Virus record (IMG/VR): IMGVR_UViG_3300028364_000072
Span: 1-38,413 of that record
Direction: 5' to 3' (one strand)
DNA: 38,413 nt
DNA from: a virus
The translations under genes and the position numbers were made by a program. The notes under the pieces are model-generated. The model ran no database searches and was not told the origin of the DNA. It was given only the letters and a program-made list of their open reading frames with translations. Below, one piece after another: positions 3,230 to 37,195 of the stretch (position 1 is its first letter; every line of letters begins with the position of its first letter).

Positions 3230-3376
3230 TTATGCTGTTAAATTAACCACCTCAATAATCTCTGTATCTGGTGTTTCGTGTAATTGTCTAAATTTAATAA
3301 TTGCTTCTTGTTCACTCTTTGCGAGTATTTGTACTTGGTCTTTTTCAGAGGTACACATGTAGCTGTTTAATGTCAT
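3230..3376 (-). CDS. small conserved phage protein, copy A
   Basis: 48 residues beginning MTLNSYMCTSEKDQVQILAK. The gene at 36791 is nearly the same in its first 35 residues and identical in length, which confirms it is coding. The C-terminal ends differ. The start ATG lies 6 bases after the -10 hexamer at 3383-3388. Function unknown. Confidence 0.8.
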   Translation of the reverse strand: MTLNSYMCTSEKDQVQILAKSEQEAIIKFRQLHETPDTEIIEVVNLTA

Positions 3377-3382
3377 AAAACC

Positions 3383-3391
3383 ATTATTACA
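3383..3391 (-). promoter_or_regulatory. extended -10 promoter, predicted leaderless
   Basis: TGTAATAAT on the minus strand, then six bases, then ATG at 3376. The same arrangement, TGTAATAAT plus six bases plus ATG, occurs in module B at 37122-37130 before a different gene. Confidence 0.6.
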
Positions 3392-3412
3392 TTTACTGTA
3401 TTTTATGCAAGC

Positions 3413-3436
3413 AAAAAAGCCTTGACTTAACTAGGC
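3413..3436 (-). terminator. Rho-independent terminator
   Basis: Minus strand: GCCT, loop, AGGC, TTTTTT. It ends the operon 5227-3450. The same sequence recurs at 37151-37175. Confidence 0.75.
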
Positions 3437-3449
3437 TTTTGTGTTGTAT

Positions 3450-3614
3450 TTAAATTGAACCTGATTCTAATACTGGTTCACAATCTTTATGCTTTTCAAA
3501 AAATTCTGATACTTTAGAATCGGAATATAACATATGACCATTTGTTCCTGAATAAGAACCATACATAACTGATTCTTCGTGCTTATCGCATACTAAATAA
3601 TAATCTGTACTCAT
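3450..3614 (-). CDS. small acidic hypothetical protein
   Basis: 54 residues, beginning MSTDYYLVCDKHEESVMYGS; the CDKH and KDCEP segments could be metal ligands, but this is weak. The start overlaps the stop of the CHC2 gene as ATGA, typical of translational coupling. In module B this position is taken by an unrelated 64-residue gene. Confidence 0.65.
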   Translation of the reverse strand: MSTDYYLVCDKHEESVMYGSYSGTNGHMLYSDSKVSEFFEKHKDCEPVLESGSI

Positions 3615-4120
3615 TGCATTTCTATAACTGCAGTTTTAAAATCACAGTTGTTAATTTTCTGATAAACCTTAATGCTATCTGCAGACTCCTCACAAGAAAA
3701 GCATTTAACAAAGTTCCCTTTCTTATGATAACTTAAACTTGGCGACTTGTCATTATGCCACAAGCACTCTATATTATTACGCCCTATATCTAGCATTGTG
3801 TCAATAGGTACATCTTTTGCCCTTGCTATCATCTCGTCATTAATCTTTCCTATACCTGTTTGTAGTGGTGCGAACTTCACAGCATCTTCATGTAGCGTTT
3901 TTTTCAGGTACGAATAAATCTCTTTGCGTGCTTCTGGCTCTTTACCTAATTCTCGTAGCATATACTTTTCTGTAATTGGAACAGGTCTCTGGTTATCTAC
4001 CCAGTCTAGTTGTAGCTCGTTTACTATGCCACACTTATTGTATTTGTCTATGTAATAGAACTCTGCAATAGGTGATTTGTATTGAGGTGTCTTTACCCAG
4101 CGTTTTAGTTTAAGTTTCAT
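3611..4120 (-). CDS. primase-type CHC2 zinc-finger protein without TOPRIM, copy A
   Basis: 169 residues. The C-terminal 50 residues match the CHC2 zinc finger of DnaG-type primases: C119, H122, then C140 and C143 (ECLWHND...KCFSCEE), with the family's PSLSYH and YADSIKVY-like surroundings. The protein ends there; no TOPRIM catalytic domain follows, and none was found elsewhere in the window. Both copies stop at the same AVIEMQ end, so this is the natural length. It probably recognises primer sites and works with the helicase just upstream and with a host or unrecognised polymerising partner. The start ATG follows the helicase stop as TAATATG. Confidence 0.75.
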   Translation of the reverse strand: MKLKLKRWVKTPQYKSPIAEFYYIDKYNKCGIVNELQLDWVDNQRPVPITEKYMLRELGKEPEARKEIYSYLKKTLHEDAVKFAPLQTGIGKINDEMIARAKDVPIDTMLDIGRNNIECLWHNDKSPSLSYHKKGNFVKCFSCEESADSIKVYQKINNCDFKTAVIEMQ

Positions 4121-6227: not shown

Positions 6228-6370
6228 AATTATTATTTAGTTAATCAAGCGAAAAGGAGAAATTCTAACTAGACCAATGACGTATCTAGGTAAAAATCCT
6301 CCTTTTTGCTGTCATTGTTATTAAGTTCAGTTAGTGCAATATTTGCACATACTGGATAGCAACGTGCTAC
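6228..6370 (-). promoter_or_regulatory. long structured 5' leader of the initiator gene
   Basis: From the predicted +1 at 6370 there are 143 bases before the ATG at 6227. They contain three hairpins: GTAGCA-cgt-TGCTAT at the very 5' end; GTGCAA-3-TTGCAC (6334-6348); and a long one with AAAAGGAG (6306-6299) pairing to CTCCTTTT (6259-6252) around an inner CTAGA/TCTAG stem. The last arm ends in UUUUCG, so it could act as an attenuator, and the only SD-like AAGGAGG is buried in it. No ORF fills the leader. Confidence 0.6.
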
Positions 6371-6376
6371 CTCTCT

Positions 6377-8919: not shown

Positions 8920-9903
8920 TTAATATTCGTAGATAGTCGGATAAGGTTTATCACTGTAGTTAATGTCTAAGTGAACAAACTGTTTAGCTCTGTTGATTCC
9001 AATACGTTTGATACCAACTTCCATAGCTGCTTTAATTATACCATATGTTTCTGCTCCTGTCCTTGCTCGCAAGTCTACTGCAAGCCCTGATAGGTGTGCT
9101 GAATTAGCTACACCACCAACACGTTTGTTATGTTCTGGTGTTCTAAATCCTGAATTAATTACAAAAGGTATACCTGCTATATCTCGTGCCTTATCTAATA
9201 GAAGAACAAACTCATGCTCTAATCCCTTAACCTCTAGTTCGGAAAAGTTTTTATACTTAGGTTTTTTTGCTGCGTTTATAGCAAGAAACGATTTAATTAA
9301 TTCTAATACAGCTTTAGGTAAACTTGACATAAAGTCTTGTGGTTCGTTTAAATACTTTGTAAAGGGATTGTATGATAGTAGTGTAACGTGATAGTTGCCT
9401 AGGTGGCTCTCAGGCACGTTGTTTTTGTAATAAGGTATAAGTTGCCCGTCTACTCTTGTAGAGTCCATCTGGTCTATTACACTGTGTCCAAGACTCTTTA
9501 GCTTTTTTCCTATTAGGTGCATAAGCTCATGAGGTAATACATGGTCGTTAGATCCGTCAGGGATTTCAGTTATAAAAGATCCATTAATAGGTTCTCTGCG
9601 AGAGTATGCAAAGTTTCCTGTATTTCTTTTAAACATAGGTACTCCGTCATACATAATTGCAACAAAGTCATAACCTAACGGAATTTTAGGTAATGATTTT
9701 AATGTGTAGCCAGTTTGACCATCTTTTGCTTTTCCTTTTTGTTTTATTTTAACATCAAAATCAGTTTCTATTACCGTAACTGTATATGGGATATTATTTA
9801 GTGCAAAGTTCTTATTTATATTAGAAAAGTATTTAAGGTTTTCAATCTCTTTTTCTACAAACTTATCGTTTACTCCTTTGTTTTTAAGTATTGCTATTTT
9901 CAT
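8920..9903 (-). CDS. endolysin: HExxH domain plus M15 D,D-peptidase
   Basis: 327 residues. The C-terminal 100 residues are a peptidase M15 (VanY/D-Ala-D-Ala carboxypeptidase-like) domain: INSGFRTPEHNKRVGG, the zinc-ligand motif SAHLSGLAVDLRA, and FVHLD with the last His. The N-terminal domain contains a separate zinc-protease signature, LPHELMHLIGKKLKSLGH (HELMH at 125-129). Two metallopeptidase sites in one lysis enzyme is unusual. The holin gene follows at once. Promoter TGGTATAAT is placed exactly six bases before the ATG. Confidence 0.78.
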   Translation of the reverse strand: MKIAILKNKGVNDKFVEKEIENLKYFSNINKNFALNNIPYTVTVIETDFDVKIKQKGKAKDGQTGYTLKSLPKIPLGYDFVAIMYDGVPMFKRNTGNFAYSRREPINGSFITEIPDGSNDHVLPHELMHLIGKKLKSLGHSVIDQMDSTRVDGQLIPYYKNNVPESHLGNYHVTLLSYNPFTKYLNEPQDFMSSLPKAVLELIKSFLAINAAKKPKYKNFSELEVKGLEHEFVLLLDKARDIAGIPFVINSGFRTPEHNKRVGGVANSAHLSGLAVDLRARTGAETYGIIKAAMEVGIKRIGINRAKQFVHLDINYSDKPYPTIYEY

Positions 9904-22997: not shown

Positions 22998-24827
22998 TTA
23001 TAAAATTTGATTGTTTCCTTGTGCATTTTGTTCTACTGAGTTAATGGTTGGTATATCTCCTTGCCCCTGTGATGCCCCTAATTGGCTCTCTACGGGCTTT
23101 TTAGCTGATGGTGTACCTAATCCATATTCGACCATAGAAACTCCAGCTAGACGGGTAATTTCTTTTACAAGATTTGGTACTGTCTCTGGTGGGAATGCTC
23201 CTGACTGGTCTTGCATTGCCATTTGTAATAGTGAGTTTAATGTTTCAAGTTTAGCTGCTACATTCTCTTCTTCACCAGTGATATCAACACGAATATTGTC
23301 AATAGCTTCTTTCAAGTCTCCTTTTTTAATATCTAGGAATTGAATTTCTTTCTTTGGTAAGTTATCTTTAACTTCTGCAATCATTTCTTGATATGTCAAT
23401 GGGTCAAGTTCTCTTCCTGATTCCAAGATGTCCTGTACTTTTCTATTAGCAATAGATAAAGCGAATCGGTCATGAATAATATCAATCTCTTGTGCTGAGA
23501 ATCCAGCCTCAAGAATAAAGTCTTTATCAATACCTTTTGCAACTTCAGGTAGAATCCACTTAGTTATAACCTTAGATCCAAGGCAAATTCCTTTTTTTTC
23601 TCTTCTATAGTCAAAGATTGAACTTGCTTGTTTAGCTTGTAGCAATCCTAATCGGTATGAAAGCCCTGATGTAGTTTCTTCCCCTGTTACAGAGTCAAAT
23701 GCTGACATAGTAGCCTTATAAGAGTCTTGCCATGAATTAACAGCACTTGGTAAGAACTGTAATGAGTTAGATGTAGTATCTAGGTTCTTATATGTCTTAC
23801 CTGAACGTACTAGCAATGTATCACCACGTTTCTTTTCAGTTAGAACGTTTAAGTCACCAATCTCTTCATCATCAGTTACCATAAGTCCTATAGATGCAAG
23901 TTCTAATGCTCTACGTTCTAGAATCTTATATAGGTTTACTTCACCCTGTGCCTCTTTACCTTCTTCAACAACTCCTAAAGCCCAGCCTACTCCTAGACGT
24001 TTTTTACGACCATCATAGATATAATTTGATTCTTTAATTTCCTCTTTAAATAAAAGTACCCCTTTATTCTCTTCACCACCTCCAATTACAAAGTAATGTT
24101 GTAGTGAATAACCTTTTGGAGCTTCTTCATCTGATTCTAGCTCATCTTCCATGTATACAGCTTTAGAGAATTGACCTTCAACCTCTAGAACTTCAATTAC
24201 ATTAGTATTTCCCTTGTCTTTATCTTCTCGTTGCTGGTCTAGGGCTTCAAGTGCCTCATCAATAGCTTCATCAATCCAAATACCACGCTTTGATTCTAAT
24301 TCAAGTGACGTCATATAGTGAGATTCAACCTTAGCACCATTTTCAATATCAAATTGGTCAAATGCAATAGATAACCAGTTTACAATGGAAATGTCTAGCT
24401 TCCCGTTCTGATCGTAAGAACGTTTGAATAGAACATTACCATATCGTGATAACATTTCTCCATACTCATTAAGCGTTTCAGCAAAGTTCATTTCCTTAAA
24501 CATGTTGTGCATGTACTTTGTTGCAAGCATTGCCTGAACCTCAAACTCTGGACTTGTAGGTCGTAAGATAATGTCTTTAGTGTCAATATCTGTTGCTCTT
24601 ATCTCTAGGTCTACAATCTGATTAACAATATTAAAGAAAGGTTTCTTTCCCAACTCATCAGTATCACCTGATAAGTATTTAGATGCACTCATAAAGGTAA
24701 TAAATGCAATCTCTTTCCTTGTATCGTATTGATATTCAATAGAACTATTGTCTAGTTCATATGTATCAACATGTATTGGTTGTTCAAAATGCGACTTAAT
24801 GTCGTCAATCTCTCTAAATAGTTTCAT
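22998..24827 (-). CDS. portal protein
   Basis: 609 residues. The order of features matches podovirus portals: N-terminal helices, a FFNIVNQIVDLEIRATDIDT segment, LNEYGEMLSRYGNVLFKRSY in the wing, a long helical region with SLQFLPSAVNSWQDSYKATM, and a low-complexity C-terminal tail with GQGDIPTINSVEQNAQ. It forms the DNA entry pore and sits first in the head operon. The ATG at 24827 is preferred over the upstream TTG, which lies only two bases from the -10. Confidence 0.78.
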   Translation of the reverse strand: MKLFREIDDIKSHFEQPIHVDTYELDNSSIEYQYDTRKEIAFITFMSASKYLSGDTDELGKKPFFNIVNQIVDLEIRATDIDTKDIILRPTSPEFEVQAMLATKYMHNMFKEMNFAETLNEYGEMLSRYGNVLFKRSYDQNGKLDISIVNWLSIAFDQFDIENGAKVESHYMTSLELESKRGIWIDEAIDEALEALDQQREDKDKGNTNVIEVLEVEGQFSKAVYMEDELESDEEAPKGYSLQHYFVIGGGEENKGVLLFKEEIKESNYIYDGRKKRLGVGWALGVVEEGKEAQGEVNLYKILERRALELASIGLMVTDDEEIGDLNVLTEKKRGDTLLVRSGKTYKNLDTTSNSLQFLPSAVNSWQDSYKATMSAFDSVTGEETTSGLSYRLGLLQAKQASSIFDYRREKKGICLGSKVITKWILPEVAKGIDKDFILEAGFSAQEIDIIHDRFALSIANRKVQDILESGRELDPLTYQEMIAEVKDNLPKKEIQFLDIKKGDLKEAIDNIRVDITGEEENVAAKLETLNSLLQMAMQDQSGAFPPETVPNLVKEITRLAGVSMVEYGLGTPSAKKPVESQLGASQGQGDIPTINSVEQNAQGNNQIL

Positions 24828-24835
24828 ATACAACC

Positions 24836-24869
24836 ATTATACCATGGTATGGGTATTTCGATTTGTCAA
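24836..24869 (-). promoter_or_regulatory. late promoter of the portal-capsid operon
   Basis: TGGTATAAT at 24844-24836, eight bases before the ATG. TTGACA at 24869-24864 stands 22 bases from the hexamer, too far for normal sigma-70 pairing, but the same spacing is found at 20899. Confidence 0.72.
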
Positions 24870-24871
24870 AC

Positions 24872-24929
24872 AAAAAACCACTAAGGGTTTAATGTTTAGT
24901 AGCTTTTCTAGGTGATCGCCCGATTACCT
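24872..24929 (-). ncRNA. predicted 58-nt small RNA
   Basis: The promoter TGTTATAAT at 24944-24936 predicts +1 at 24929. From there the RNA begins exactly with the hairpin AGGU-A-AUC-GGGC-GAU-C-ACCU, continues through an unpaired stretch, and ends in AACC-CUUAGU-GGUU followed by a U-run. No ORF lies in it. The hairpin is complementary to a loop in the plus-strand RNA at 25066-25074. The terminator abuts the portal promoter. Confidence 0.55.
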
Positions 24930-24976: not shown

Positions 24977-24985
24977 TGGTATAAT
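24977..24985 (+). promoter_or_regulatory. extended -10 promoter of the plus-strand RNA
   Basis: TGGTATAAT on the plus strand, identical to the consensus of the leaderless promoters. Predicted +1 at 24992 (no ATG there). Confidence 0.7.
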
Positions 24986-24991
24986 AGATAG

Positions 24992-25210
24992 GTAACACAA
25001 TTTAATATAGTGACAAGTGATGACGATGGGTTTAATTAATGAAACGTCTTAAAAGATACAGCTATTCGCCCGATACTGTACGGCATATATACCACTCTTG
25101 GTTATATGTTTAAGTGATTTAGCTTTTTTAGCTTACATCGAGTTTAAACAGATGTGTTGAGGTTAAAGTTTAGTACCAGTTCTGCTCTTTAGCAGGATTG
25201 GGTACTTTTA
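24992..25210 (+). ncRNA. predicted structured RNA of about 220 nt
   Basis: It runs from the predicted +1 to a terminator and has no ORF above a few codons. Helices: closing stem AACACA (24994-24999) with TGTGTT (25153-25158); TACAG-c-TAT / ATA-CTGTA with loop TCGCCCG (25057-25080); a 9-bp hairpin at 25084-25108 with loop ACTCTT; a long imperfect hairpin starting GTTTAA/TTAAAC (25108-25149) around AGCT/AGCT. It ends with GTACC..CTGC/GCAG..GGTAC and TTTT at 25173-25209. I know no family that matches. Confidence 0.6.
25173..25210 (+). terminator. Rho-independent terminator of the plus-strand RNA
   Basis: GTACC with GGTAC, inner CTGC with GCAG, then TTTTA. The 9-mer GGTTAAAGT occurs just before and just after it. 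Confidence 0.75.
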
Positions 25211-25246: not shown

Positions 25247-25555
25247 ATGAATATAGAGAGAAGGGAGTGTGGTTATAAGGATTGTAATGAAATCAATAAG
25301 GTTTACTATCATTTATATAAAAATGCAACAAAACATCTAACAATGAGATGTAAAATTCATGGTTATGTTACTATTCAATATGAAAATGGATTAGATATAC
25401 CTTGGTATGACCAGAGTAAACCAGAAATATTTGCAGAAATAAATGAAATAAAAAGAGTACAAAAACAAGCTATTAAACAAAAGCGATTGTCAAGGCGGAT
25501 CAATAATAATAATAAAAGAACAACAATGTCAGCAAGCCAACTACTGTCAATGTAG
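25247..25555 (+). CDS. plus-strand basic protein with a possible zinc site
   Basis: 102 residues. The N-terminal half has RECGYKDC and, 24 residues on, RCKIHGY, a CxxxC...CxxH arrangement of a small zinc module. The C-terminal third is very basic (KRVQKQAIKQKRLSRR), suggesting nucleic-acid binding. It is the only sizeable gene on this strand and would be reached by read-through from the structured RNA. A terminator overlaps its stop, which supports it being a real unit. No SD. Confidence 0.62.
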   Translation: MNIERRECGYKDCNEINKVYYHLYKNATKHLTMRCKIHGYVTIQYENGLDIPWYDQSKPEIFAEINEIKRVQKQAIKQKRLSRRINNNNKRTTMSASQLLSM

Positions 25556-26423: not shown

Positions 26424-28025
26424 TTACAAGCCTCCAAACGTATTAACTTTAGCTTGACGTTTCTTATATCTCTTCCATTCTTTAACTGGATCTTTACTTG
26501 AATGAGCATAATCCTTTACAGCCCAAGCAATACATACAGCAATCAATAAGTCAAAGTGTCTAGTAGCTAATGCTTCACCATTGTTTTCTAGGTCGTTAAA
26601 GCTAAATGACTTCATCTCTCGTAGAACGTCAACATCATAAATCTTAATCAATCCCTCGTTAAATGCAGTTCTAAACTTATACAACATATCAGGTTTTGTC
26701 TTTGAGTTAGTATGCCATCCTAGTATTTTCTTAGGTGTAGCTGAATGCATAGCCATAGTTCTGTCCTGGTAAACATTAGAGTATATATTCTTCAATGCGT
26801 CAACTGTACTTAATCCAATACTATTACGTTCAGGAGCTACTAGACATCCACCATACTTGTTCCCAGCTCTTGCAATCTCATGTGCAAATATATCAGGAGC
26901 AATCCTATTGTTATGATACGTTGCCACAAGTTCACCTGTTGTCAAGTTAAACGCTGCAATAGTAGAACTATCTCCACCTCCCCCACCTGCAACATCAGCA
27001 CCAACATCATATCTATGACCTTGATAAAAGTCTTTCCATACCTTAAGTCCTGCTTCATTTCTAATAGGTTCAATTACGGTTTTTAGTTGCTCATCTACTA
27101 GGTCTAAGTCAAAGAACTTGTCATCCTCTCGGCTTGGGTCACACAAATACTCTGAAAACCAGTATTGACTATCCACATTTAATGCGATTACTTTCTCTAA
27201 TGGAAATCTATCAGCCCATGTAGGCTTTGCATCTACGAGCTTTTTACCATCATATACACAATCTGTAGCAATAGCCCATACCATTTCTGTAACTGAACCC
27301 TTACTCGCTATCATCTCTACGCTTCCATATTCTGAAATGTAGTTGGCTGTACATATGTAACTACCATCTGGACTCATACCATCTATAGCCTCCTCGATCT
27401 TATCCATTACAGATTGAGTTACCACGGCACTCTTGATACTTTCTCTATCCTCAATATCATCAAACCATATAAAATCAGGTCGATAGCTCTCAATACCTTG
27501 GTTATGTCCACGCTGTGTCTGTCCTACTGTACCAGCTGTGAGCTTAACATCTGACTTCATGGTAAAACTTCCCATAGTTTCCTCACGCTTCTTGTCACCC
27601 TCTTTGGCAAATAGATCACCGAATACAGGTTTAATAACCACTAAAGCGTTGTATACATCAGTTACCACCTGTTTAGAGTTCTTTAAATCCTTTGATAGTA
27701 CCTTATTGTACATACGTCTCACATCTCTTGAGTCACAAGCTAATACAAATACCATTACTAACTTCATGATCGCAGTCTTACCACAACCACGAAACCCCTT
27801 AATAAGGAAGTTTTGTTGCCCTAAGTATGACTTAATGTAATGCTTTGTCAATACCTCATGTAGTTCTACACTTTTAGAGTTAAATGAAGTAGGGAAAAAA
27901 TACCTTGTAAAGTATACATACTTCTTGTACATCATGTCAACATCATCTTTCTCTGTGAAGCTAAACAGTTCTCTTTTATCCGCACTTGACCCATCAAATA
28001 GTATGCTTTCTATAGTTTCATTCAT
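26424..28025 (-). CDS. terL: terminase large subunit
   Basis: 533 residues. The N-terminal ATPase has Walker A GFRGCGKT (77-84) and Walker B FIWFDDIED (about 190). The C-terminal RNase H-like nuclease has YDVGADVAGGGGGDSS with the first metal-binding Asp, a LVAPERNSIGLSTVDAL segment, and HFDLLIAVCIAWAV near the end. It pumps DNA into the prohead through the portal and cuts the concatemer. The ATG is exactly six bases after TATAAT. It forms a one-gene transcription unit. Confidence 0.9.
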   Translation of the reverse strand: MNETIESILFDGSSADKRELFSFTEKDDVDMMYKKYVYFTRYFFPTSFNSKSVELHEVLTKHYIKSYLGQQNFLIKGFRGCGKTAIMKLVMVFVLACDSRDVRRMYNKVLSKDLKNSKQVVTDVYNALVVIKPVFGDLFAKEGDKKREETMGSFTMKSDVKLTAGTVGQTQRGHNQGIESYRPDFIWFDDIEDRESIKSAVVTQSVMDKIEEAIDGMSPDGSYICTANYISEYGSVEMIASKGSVTEMVWAIATDCVYDGKKLVDAKPTWADRFPLEKVIALNVDSQYWFSEYLCDPSREDDKFFDLDLVDEQLKTVIEPIRNEAGLKVWKDFYQGHRYDVGADVAGGGGGDSSTIAAFNLTTGELVATYHNNRIAPDIFAHEIARAGNKYGGCLVAPERNSIGLSTVDALKNIYSNVYQDRTMAMHSATPKKILGWHTNSKTKPDMLYKFRTAFNEGLIKIYDVDVLREMKSFSFNDLENNGEALATRHFDLLIAVCIAWAVKDYAHSSKDPVKEWKRYKKRQAKVNTFGGL

Positions 28026-29620: not shown

Positions 29621-31159
29621 TTATTTAACTGCGTCAATCCGAGCCTGTGCAATTTTACAGTACTCTGGGTCTAATTCTATTCCTATAAAGTCAAAGCCCT
29701 CTAGTACACAAGCCTTACCTGTTGAACCTGATCCCATGAAAGGGTCTAGTACAGTTCCACCTACTGGTGTTACAAGGCGTACAAGGTATTGCATGAGTGC
29801 TGTTGGTTTAACTGTTGGGTGGTTGTTGGCATTTATTGTTTTTGGTCTTCCGTCTGATTCAAACACATCGAATGAACTTGCTTCTCTTTTTTCTTGACTA
29901 GCCCATGTTTGTTTCTCCTCAAACTCATCCAACCCCTCATTCCTATCTTTCTTTGAAGCCTTGGCACAATAGAAATACCTAGCTGCACTACCTCCTAAAT
30001 CATTATAGCCACCTCTTTCAGAGACTGTTTCCTCTGCTTTATTGTCTGCTCGTGGAATTGGTTTACCTTTCCCTCCTGATTTACTTGGTGCTGTATCAGG
30101 AAACAACCCCACCACCTCATCACTTCCGTCATGTATGAAGTTTGCAGGGAATCTGCCAGTTTGCTTTGGTCTTTCAAATTCCTTTCTTTTACTTTCATAA
30201 AGCCTAACACATTCTCCCACTATTGAGTCAAATAGTATTCTATCTCCATCATTAATTTCAGGTAACTTGCACCAATTATATACTTCAGGTGATTCAAGAT
30301 TTTCTTTTAACTCTGACCAAACATAATCCTCATCATCTAACCATTTTTTAATTAAATCTTTATGTTCGTTTTTGTACCAGTATTTCTCTCCATGATAATC
30401 AACCTCTGACATATCAACGTCAGGTGCTGAACCCGCACTAGAATTTGATGTACATTTCCCTTGTGGTGTTGCACTAGCTTTATCTGCTTCTCCTTGATAT
30501 TCCACCCTACACCCATCAATATTTATCCCACCTGTTCCCCACTCTATTACATTCTTAGCAATAGTCTTTTCAGATAAAGGTTTTCTTGCTACTACAATAG
30601 GTTCATGTGCAGGCTTTAGTGCTGTACCCCAGCCTTCGTATGGTGATGAGCCTTTGGTATCAATTACAATATTTGTACCACTTCCTGCATCTGAATTTCC
30701 TCTTCCTGACTTTCTTGATGCCATTGCAGAACCAGTAATTCTTTCTCCAACAATATCCCTCTCATTCCCCTGCAACTTATCAACTGACTTTCCTATGTTA
30801 TGCGACTTAGGAAATCCTGAACCATAAACCCACATAATCTGGTCACGAATCTCAAACCCAGCGTCTTCAACTGCAGAAGCTAATCTGTGATATGTTCTAC
30901 TTCCACCGAAAGCAAGTAAATATCCTCCTGGTTTTAACACTCTTAATACCTGCTCCCAAAGTTCAACATTATATTCTATTCCACTACCATCCCACTCTTT
31001 GCCCATAAATCCTTTTGATGACTTTGGTAAAGCACCATCTGTTCCAAGCCTTTTTACAATACTAACAAGTCCATATGGTGGATCACAAACCACTGCATCA
31101 ATACTATTAGCTGTTGCTCTTTTTAATACTTCTAAACTATCTCCGTTTATTATTTTCAT
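29621..31159 (-). CDS. DNA methyltransferase (N4/N6, DPPY type)
   Basis: 512 residues. Motif IV, VVCDPPYG, is near the N-terminus (26-30), and the AdoMet-binding motif I, LDPFMGSGST, comes at about 472-481, followed by FIGIELDPEYCKIAQ. This order is the beta class of amino-methyltransferases. The 300-residue insert between them is large and holds a target-recognition region (SSPYEGWGTALKPAHEPIVV and others). No restriction partner is adjacent, so it is an orphan enzyme likely protecting phage DNA. ATG 31159 lies eight bases after TATAAT. Confidence 0.88.
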   Translation of the reverse strand: MKIINGDSLEVLKRATANSIDAVVCDPPYGLVSIVKRLGTDGALPKSSKGFMGKEWDGSGIEYNVELWEQVLRVLKPGGYLLAFGGSRTYHRLASAVEDAGFEIRDQIMWVYGSGFPKSHNIGKSVDKLQGNERDIVGERITGSAMASRKSGRGNSDAGSGTNIVIDTKGSSPYEGWGTALKPAHEPIVVARKPLSEKTIAKNVIEWGTGGINIDGCRVEYQGEADKASATPQGKCTSNSSAGSAPDVDMSEVDYHGEKYWYKNEHKDLIKKWLDDEDYVWSELKENLESPEVYNWCKLPEINDGDRILFDSIVGECVRLYESKRKEFERPKQTGRFPANFIHDGSDEVVGLFPDTAPSKSGGKGKPIPRADNKAEETVSERGGYNDLGGSAARYFYCAKASKKDRNEGLDEFEEKQTWASQEKREASSFDVFESDGRPKTINANNHPTVKPTALMQYLVRLVTPVGGTVLDPFMGSGSTGKACVLEGFDFIGIELDPEYCKIAQARIDAVK

Positions 31160-31167
31160 ATACATAG

Positions 31168-35294: not shown

Positions 35295-36602
35295 TTATGT
35301 AATCATTACATATAACATCTGATGTCCGTCTTTGTAAACAATACCATTAGCATGTGCATGAGCCGAAGGTCCTTTCATGTATCTTTGTTTTAAGGTACAG
35401 TTAGTTCCTACTGAAATTGCATTAGCAAGTCTTTCTGGCTTATGAGTATGTCCTGACATTTGCTTAAAGTTTTGCCTATCAAATTGAGCAATACTTCCTC
35501 TTGATCCTGATATACCACAATGTCCATGTGAGCCAATATTAATACCAGCTACTCTGAACTCGTCATTTTCTAATAAGAATTTCATATTCTTTGGTAGCTT
35601 TCCAATTGACTCAAGTGCTATTTGTAGAACAGGTTTCTTTTCTTTTAGAATTTCAGGTATTATCTTAGCAATAAACAAAAAGTTTTGTGGATTATACATA
35701 AAGTCTCCTGAATCAATGTATCTTCTTAAAAAAACATCGTGGTTACTTTCAGGAATAATAAACTTTATATTAGGAAATTCTTTTGCCATTCCAATTAAAT
35801 GCTTATATACCATTTTTAATTCTTTATCAAGTGAGTCTTTCTTCATTTGATAATTCTTTAACGACGATATAAAAGATTTAACTTCATGTCTATTAACGCT
35901 TGCTCCATCAAACACATCATGCAACGCACAATATTCTGGTTTCATATCTCTCAACTGATCGAGCGACATAGCATAAGCTTTTTTATCAAGAATACCTAAG
36001 TGCAAATCCCCAAGAACTATTGCTTTTGGTCGAGACTTTTCTACCTTTCCTTTATTGTAAAATTCAGTTAAGTAATTAAAGTTTCCATTCTTTTGGCAAT
36101 CAACTTGTAGTCCGTAGAACACTCTATTATTTACAATCCGCACATAGATAAAACCAAACTCATGTTGCTCTAATGCTTTTTGTCCTAATTGGGTATTCAA
36201 CTTATACGACCCTTCTGTTAATGCTCCCGTAGACATTAATGCTCTTGGGTGGTGTGATAAATTAGACAATGTTGTATATCTAATTTTAGTTGCTGGTAAA
36301 ATGTGAGAACATTCTCGTGGCAGTTTAGAATTTAAACCGTTAAAAGGTCTAACTTTCTGTGCTTGCACTTTCATATCTCTAAGACGTAAATTGCTATTAA
36401 GATTTTTATTATCTACAATAGAAAATCCTGCATCAAAAACTCTAGGGTCTACAATTTCATCATCTTTATATTTACCATTCATTACAAAGGTTAATAATCC
36501 CTCATCTGTTACATCATGAACTTTTTGAAAAGCCTTGATGTTCTTTAATAGGTTTTTATTAACTTTAGCTCCTTTTTGTACTGTTGTTATAATGTATTTC
36601 AT
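35295..36602 (-). CDS. calcineurin-like metallophosphoesterase, copy B
   Basis: 435 residues. LGDLHLG, PESNHDVF, GSHGHCGISG and SGHTHKPE are the metal-binding motifs, with a full D-x-H. About half identical to copy A by eye, with the same domain layout and the same single-gene unit (promoter 36658, terminator 35245). Substrate unknown. Confidence 0.82.
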   Translation of the reverse strand: MKYIITTVQKGAKVNKNLLKNIKAFQKVHDVTDEGLLTFVMNGKYKDDEIVDPRVFDAGFSIVDNKNLNSNLRLRDMKVQAQKVRPFNGLNSKLPRECSHILPATKIRYTTLSNLSHHPRALMSTGALTEGSYKLNTQLGQKALEQHEFGFIYVRIVNNRVFYGLQVDCQKNGNFNYLTEFYNKGKVEKSRPKAIVLGDLHLGILDKKAYAMSLDQLRDMKPEYCALHDVFDGASVNRHEVKSFISSLKNYQMKKDSLDKELKMVYKHLIGMAKEFPNIKFIIPESNHDVFLRRYIDSGDFMYNPQNFLFIAKIIPEILKEKKPVLQIALESIGKLPKNMKFLLENDEFRVAGINIGSHGHCGISGSRGSIAQFDRQNFKQMSGHTHKPERLANAISVGTNCTLKQRYMKGPSAHAHANGIVYKDGHQMLYVMIT

Positions 36603-37115: not shown

Positions 37116-37121
37116 AAGTCT

Positions 37122-37130
37122 ATTATTACA
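37122..37130 (-). promoter_or_regulatory. extended -10 promoter, predicted leaderless
   Basis: TGTAATAAT, six bases (AGACTT), ATG at 37115. Same promoter as at 3383. Confidence 0.6.
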
Positions 37131-37150
37131 TTTACTGTATTTTATGCAAG

Positions 37151-37175
37151 AAAAAAAGCCTTGACTTAACTAGGC
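37151..37175 (-). terminator. Rho-independent terminator
   Basis: Same GCCT/AGGC hairpin and T-run as at 3413. Confidence 0.75.
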
Positions 37176-37195
37176 TTTTGTGGTGTATTATATAT

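Follow-up and report, generated by a model that had tools for sequence, protein, structure and literature searches.

Two divergent candidate RNAs with complementary loops between the terminase and portal genes of an uncultured phage

Back-to-back promoters between the terminase and portal genes of an uncultured phage would make two non-overlapping RNAs, one of about 220 nt on the plus strand and one of about 60 nt on the minus strand. The two are proposed to bind in trans through two loop-loop (kissing) contacts, A and B, whereby the small RNA probably acts as an antisense that silences the long one. We consider such a kissing-loop antisense pair the best reading of the locus, with a probability of about one half. 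Boundaries, conservation, one covarying hairpin and loop complementarity in two phages are supported by the sequences; from these we infer transcription, binding, the direction of control and the target. The likeliest target would be initiation at a 24-codon ORF within the long RNA, read-through of its terminator into a downstream ORF (25247-25555), or both. The original prediction, a new plus-strand RNA, described one half of this unit and missed the divergent second RNA with its two complementary loops.

The locus and its relatives

The sequence analysed (the window) is the virus record IMGVR_UViG_3300028364_000072 with its full length of 38,413 bases. Its long genes lie on the minus strand, among them those for the terminase large subunit (26424-28025) and a portal-like protein (22998-24833; weak match to a PHROG head-tail adaptor), the latter with a promoter at 24844-24836. 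Between the two, the plus strand carries an extended -10 element (TGGTATAAT, 24977-24985), the long RNA (24992-25210) and a 102-aa ORF (25247-25555). Near-identical intergenic stretches with the terminator AAAAGCCTAGTTAAGTCAAGGCTTTTTT are found at both record ends (3390-3470 and 37120-37190, minus strand), and the genes 1052-2368 and 35295-36602 both match PHROG 1745 (DNA transfer protein), which together suggests a duplicated block. A DNA methyltransferase of 514 aa (29621-31165, minus strand) possibly carries an insert in its middle; its PHROG 67 match runs along the whole protein but takes in only about 220 positions of the profile.

Viral and genome contigs were scanned with portal, terminase, portal-alignment and ORF-102 queries. 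Apart from a near-identical contig (L002/L006/L009), the record has a single informative and diverged relative, L003, whose portal is 80% identical to that of the window and which shares its metagenome with the near-identical contig. Upstream of the portal match, L003 extends for 341 bases and covers the long RNA up to position 25167. Two partial contigs (L004 and L005, portal 98% identical) are missing the region of the RNA pair, and distant terminase relatives from the scans are without the long RNA. In most other relatives the terminase-portal interval is short or filled with ORFs and such RNAs are absent. The terminase matches of L022, L023 and L024 are interrupted by about 1 kb near residue 290-295 (in L023 also at 443); the interruptions resemble introns or inserted elements that occupy one common site in several relatives.

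Among the INPHARED phages no relative of the portal or terminase was found, and the DNA match was only a 31-base chance piece. A strict pattern search of the RNA matched nothing beyond the near-identical contig and L003; a looser one built on three loop cores yielded four more matches, which are chance-like and lack the RNA pair. Covariance models R1 and R2, run over 49 related records, recovered only L003 plus one insignificant match (E 0.29). Using the Rfam 15 covariance models (phi29 packaging RNA, 6S, c4 and others) only tRNA matched at gathering scores, and a permissive Rfam scan gave chance-level matches only.

The long RNA and its fold

The perfect plus-strand promoter that had been proposed is confirmed as an exact match to the extended -10 and is invariant in L003. 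Sites of this kind number 34 in the window versus 18.9 expected, a count reached in none of 100 shuffles. That every other such promoter begins a gene or the tRNA holds roughly, but one exact site, at 9035, is intragenic, the tRNA promoter reads TGATATAAT, and two TGTTATAAT sites (24936 and 6377) start other apparently non-coding units. The site at 6385-6377 (minus strand) starts a very stable stretch of three hairpins right after tRNA-Gln (6248-6371, minus strand; fold z -6.9, 0 of 200 shuffles). This stretch has no Rfam match. Across promoter and 5' end, 21 of 24 bases agree between this stretch (TATGTTATAATAGAGAGGTAGCAC) and the long RNA (TATGGTATAATAGATAGGTAACAC), and judged by predicted folding energy the stretch would be the stronger structural RNA candidate of the two.

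The long RNA extends from the predicted +1 to an intrinsic terminator (25171-25210). Between 24992 and 25167 it is 90% identical in L003 (158/176), whereas identity at fourfold-degenerate sites in the neighbouring portal gene is only 55%, hence synonymous positions are far diverged. Its most conserved stretch (25105-25167, 62 of 63 bases) is located outside both contacts. The DNA between the two divergent -10 boxes is only 57% identical with both boxes invariant. Taken together these values strongly indicate that selection acts on the RNA stretch and both promoters, and the predicted transcript of about 220 nt is very probably real. It looks untranslated. The stretch had been described as free of ORFs: no ORF of at least 60 aa is found in 24992-25210 on either strand, but a 24-codon ATG ORF is present.

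The folding energy is ordinary, with z -1.28 for 24992-25210 (25 of 200 shuffles are equally stable) and z -0.06 for 25018-25170, where the terminator is left out. Hairpin 1 (25022-25048) has a GACG/CGUC stem and contact B in its loop; the stem is invariant in both phages and thus carries no covariation information. Hairpin 2 (25057-25080, UACAG-C-UAU-UCGCCCG-AUA-CUGUA) bears contact A in its loop and corresponds to the predicted 8-pair hairpin with loop UCGCCCG. All eight pairs are kept in L003, where four of the five changes combine into two exactly compensated pairs, one going from C-G to U-A and the other from U-A to C-G; random sets of five substitutions gave this preserved pairing in 0.13% of trials. 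The predicted 9-pair hairpin was recovered as hairpin 3 (25083-25109). Its stem base is kept in L003, two of 11 pairs as written are lost there, and the CC/GG pairs can re-register. Hairpin 4 (25135-25155, ACAUC/GAUGU) is invariant in L003 and holds in its loop the palindrome GUUUAAAC (25142-25149), a possible self-pairing site. The clear terminator of the original prediction was found by scan and fold, with a stem at 25176-25201 (scan) that is extendable to about 25171-25205 and a U-rich tail to 25210; the L003 sequence stops short of it.

The proposed closing stem AACACA/UGUGUU was rejected, as two of its six pairs are disrupted in L003. It is the only stem hit by uncompensated breakage, while hairpin 2 is kept with its two compensatory changes. 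Hence the new RNA as such stands, with conservation far above neutral, compensatory changes and no Rfam match, whereas its fold had been only partly right. The covariation rests on two distinct sequences (window type and L003) and is therefore thin; column-shuffle controls (125/500 for the long RNA, 251/500 for the small RNA) have no power with two rows.

The small RNA, the loop contacts and the putative targets

Divergent to TGGTATAAT, the minus strand carries the extended -10 TGTTATAAT (24944-24936), which is invariant in L003. The distance between the -10 boxes is 32 bp in the window and 35 bp in L003, so that polymerases should compete for the two promoters. The predicted small RNA of about 60 nt (24930-24871, minus strand; fold z -2.2) consists of a hairpin and a terminator hairpin and stops short of the portal promoter. 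Its hairpin 1 is AGGUAAUC-GGGC-GAUCACCU with GGGC as the loop. The terminator (24902-24872, from sequence and fold) reads CUACUAA-ACAUUAAACCC-UUAGUGG-UUUUUU with an 11-nt loop, and its region (24866-24900) is conserved in 33 of 35 bases. L003 keeps both hairpins with one compensatory change, seen in hairpin 1, and two one-sided changes. Moreover the 9-nt core of hairpin 1 (AAUCGGGCG) shows no change in L003, compared to six changes in the other 11 nt (Fisher p 0.014).

The small RNA presents two complementary loops, AUCGGGCG and AUUAAACCC. Contact A is a 9-nt complementarity of UCGCCCGAU in the long RNA (25066-25074, plus strand) to AUCGGGCGA at the GGGC loop of hairpin 1 (24924-24916, minus strand), pairing CGCCC(GAU) with (AUC)GGGCG. 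Contact B is formed by GGGUUUAAU (25028-25036, plus strand) and AUUAAACCC in the terminator loop (24893-24885, minus strand). The two RNAs do not overlap and their complementarity is limited to these two 9-nt repeats, which are direct repeats in the DNA; the two direct-repeat pairs flank the divergent promoters. The contacts stand in antiparallel order on the two RNAs, hence both could form simultaneously. In a control with 1000 dinucleotide-shuffled pairs, one or more 9-nt matches occurred in 70 and two in a single pair.

In L003 both sides of contact B are changed (GGGUUUAAA in the long and UUUAAACCC in the small RNA). The core CGCCC/GGGCG of contact A is invariant there, with pairing confined to the core plus one G-U. 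At the start of contact A in the long RNA, UUCG/CUCG conforms in both phages to the YUNR pattern of a U-turn. The loops of the small RNA are predicted to be open (unpaired probability 0.99 for GGGC and 0.83-1.0 for AUUAAACCC), the contact loops of the long RNA partly open (0.1-0.97). A third complementary stretch (UAGCUUUUUUAG/CUAGAAAAGCUA) was rejected, being out of order and absent in L003.

Contact B is followed after 2 nt by the AUG of the 24-codon ORF (MKRLKRYSYSPDTVRHIYHSWLYV, 25039-25113, plus strand), a putative coding region and possible translated target. The start of this ORF is AT-rich and without Shine-Dalgarno sequence like other gene starts in the window. Most of these show no clear Shine-Dalgarno and have AT-rich TAAATTATT-like leaders or are apparently leaderless, a few bases after TATAAT. 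The 24-aa product is basic and has no Pfam match. Between the window and L003 two codon changes are synonymous and three non-synonymous, showing no protein-level selection; both synonymous changes are sides of compensated stem pairs. An overlapping hydrophobic frame (25053-25157) was rejected, since it has no ATG start and its codon changes in L003 are all non-synonymous or stop.

The 102-aa ORF at 25247-25555 was found only in the near-identical contig by the contig scans and has no match in Pfam, PHROGs or NCBIfam. The terminator of the long RNA sits just before it on the same strand, and the ORF is a possible read-through product. Its ATG is immediately preceded by TATAAG, so it may have a promoter of its own.

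Alternative readings and comparison with known systems

The long RNA could be a stand-alone structural or host-directed RNA, with the small RNA unrelated or only titrating and the loop complementarity a by-product of a small direct duplication. That its most conserved part (62/63) lies outside the contacts and includes a palindromic loop able to self-pair is in line with this idea, as are the direct repeats at the DNA level. The loop core of the small RNA is nevertheless fixed while its stem diverges, and contact B covaries; on balance we regard a stand-alone RNA as unlikely. A narrower form of the antisense reading would make the long RNA the 5' leader or attenuator of ORF 25247-25555, the small RNA tuning termination as RNAIII of pIP501 does. 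We find this somewhat harder to accept: the terminator is placed directly ahead of the same-strand ORF, but there is no clear antiterminator fold, TATAAG could serve as the ORF's own promoter, and the ORF is not seen in L003 (where the contig ends) or beyond the near-identical contig.

Rather than RNA contacts, the direct repeats GGGTTTAAT...TCGCCCGAT might be operators in the DNA at which a regulator controls the two divergent promoters, but this is very improbable. They do flank these promoters, yet they are located downstream of both start points and in hairpin loops, and the neighbouring stem changes are compensatory. Least probable of all is the absence of any functional RNA, in which case the region would be conserved DNA without a coding role or would contain a short coding sequence. 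Average folding energy and the presence of the 24-codon ORF would fit, whereas conservation reaches well past this ORF, and L003 retains both promoters as well as the terminator of the small RNA. Coding is further at odds with three of five changed codons being non-synonymous and the two synonymous ones being sides of compensated pairs.

The kissing-loop antisense pair might go further and form a self-contained module of two divergent RNAs with two kissing loops, an RNA-only switch of the addiction-like or timing kind with the head operon or the 24-aa peptide under its control; we consider this extension doubtful. In the more distantly related L010 (terminase 63% identical), this terminase-portal position is occupied by a different candidate RNA pair. 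Its two apparently non-coding units (about 3249-3540 and 3599-3735) are co-directional with the portal and do not resemble the window pair in sequence; the second has a terminator and a fold z of -3.2. Between them they have two complementary stretches of 9 nt, again antiparallel in order (CCCCUUUGU and UGAGAGCUU), a result matched by 7 of 300 shuffles. The contact bases in the second RNA are predicted to be mostly paired, and this pair is thus a lead only.

RNAII/RNAIII of pIP501 and sib/Ibs are cis-antisense systems encoded on overlapping DNA. They form two simultaneous loop pairs and have a YUNR U-turn beside the contact loop (PMC6562991). The window pair resembles pIP501 by two complementary loop pairs that are predicted to be exposed and by YUNR beside a contact loop. 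In contrast to pIP501, its RNAs are non-overlapping and would pair through two 9-nt repeats, and no replication gene is present here.

In par(pAD1), a type I toxin-antitoxin system, RNAs of about 220-230 nt and about 40-60 nt are transcribed in opposite directions across two direct repeats; the short RNA makes contact through its terminator loop, and a contact adjoins the initiation codon (PMC7472228). Two oppositely transcribed direct repeats creating complementarity, the RNA sizes, a terminator-loop contact and a contact near a start codon all recur in the window. However, the promoters are divergent instead of convergent, and each RNA has its own terminator in place of a shared bidirectional one. 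Moreover a hydrophobic Fst-like toxin peptide, as in Fst/Ldr, is absent, the 24-aa ORF product being basic and without Pfam match.

Phage c4 RNA presents complementary sequences in loops (PMC12197685). Like the proposed small RNA of the window, the c4 RNA of P1/P7 and sar of P22 are small phage antisense RNAs, and with c4 it also shares the loop-borne complementarity. Their target is an antirepressor mRNA; none was identified here, and the proposed target has no ATG ORF longer than 24 codons.

Outside model phages, few phage RNAs come with a proposed partner and a testable contact, and in this case both contacts are specified at single-base resolution. If true, a divergent, repeat-encoded antisense pair within the structural gene block would stand beside the known convergent and overlapping designs. 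By analogy, the best reading is a pair that would work like pIP501, c4 and par(pAD1) but is divergent and without an Rfam family.
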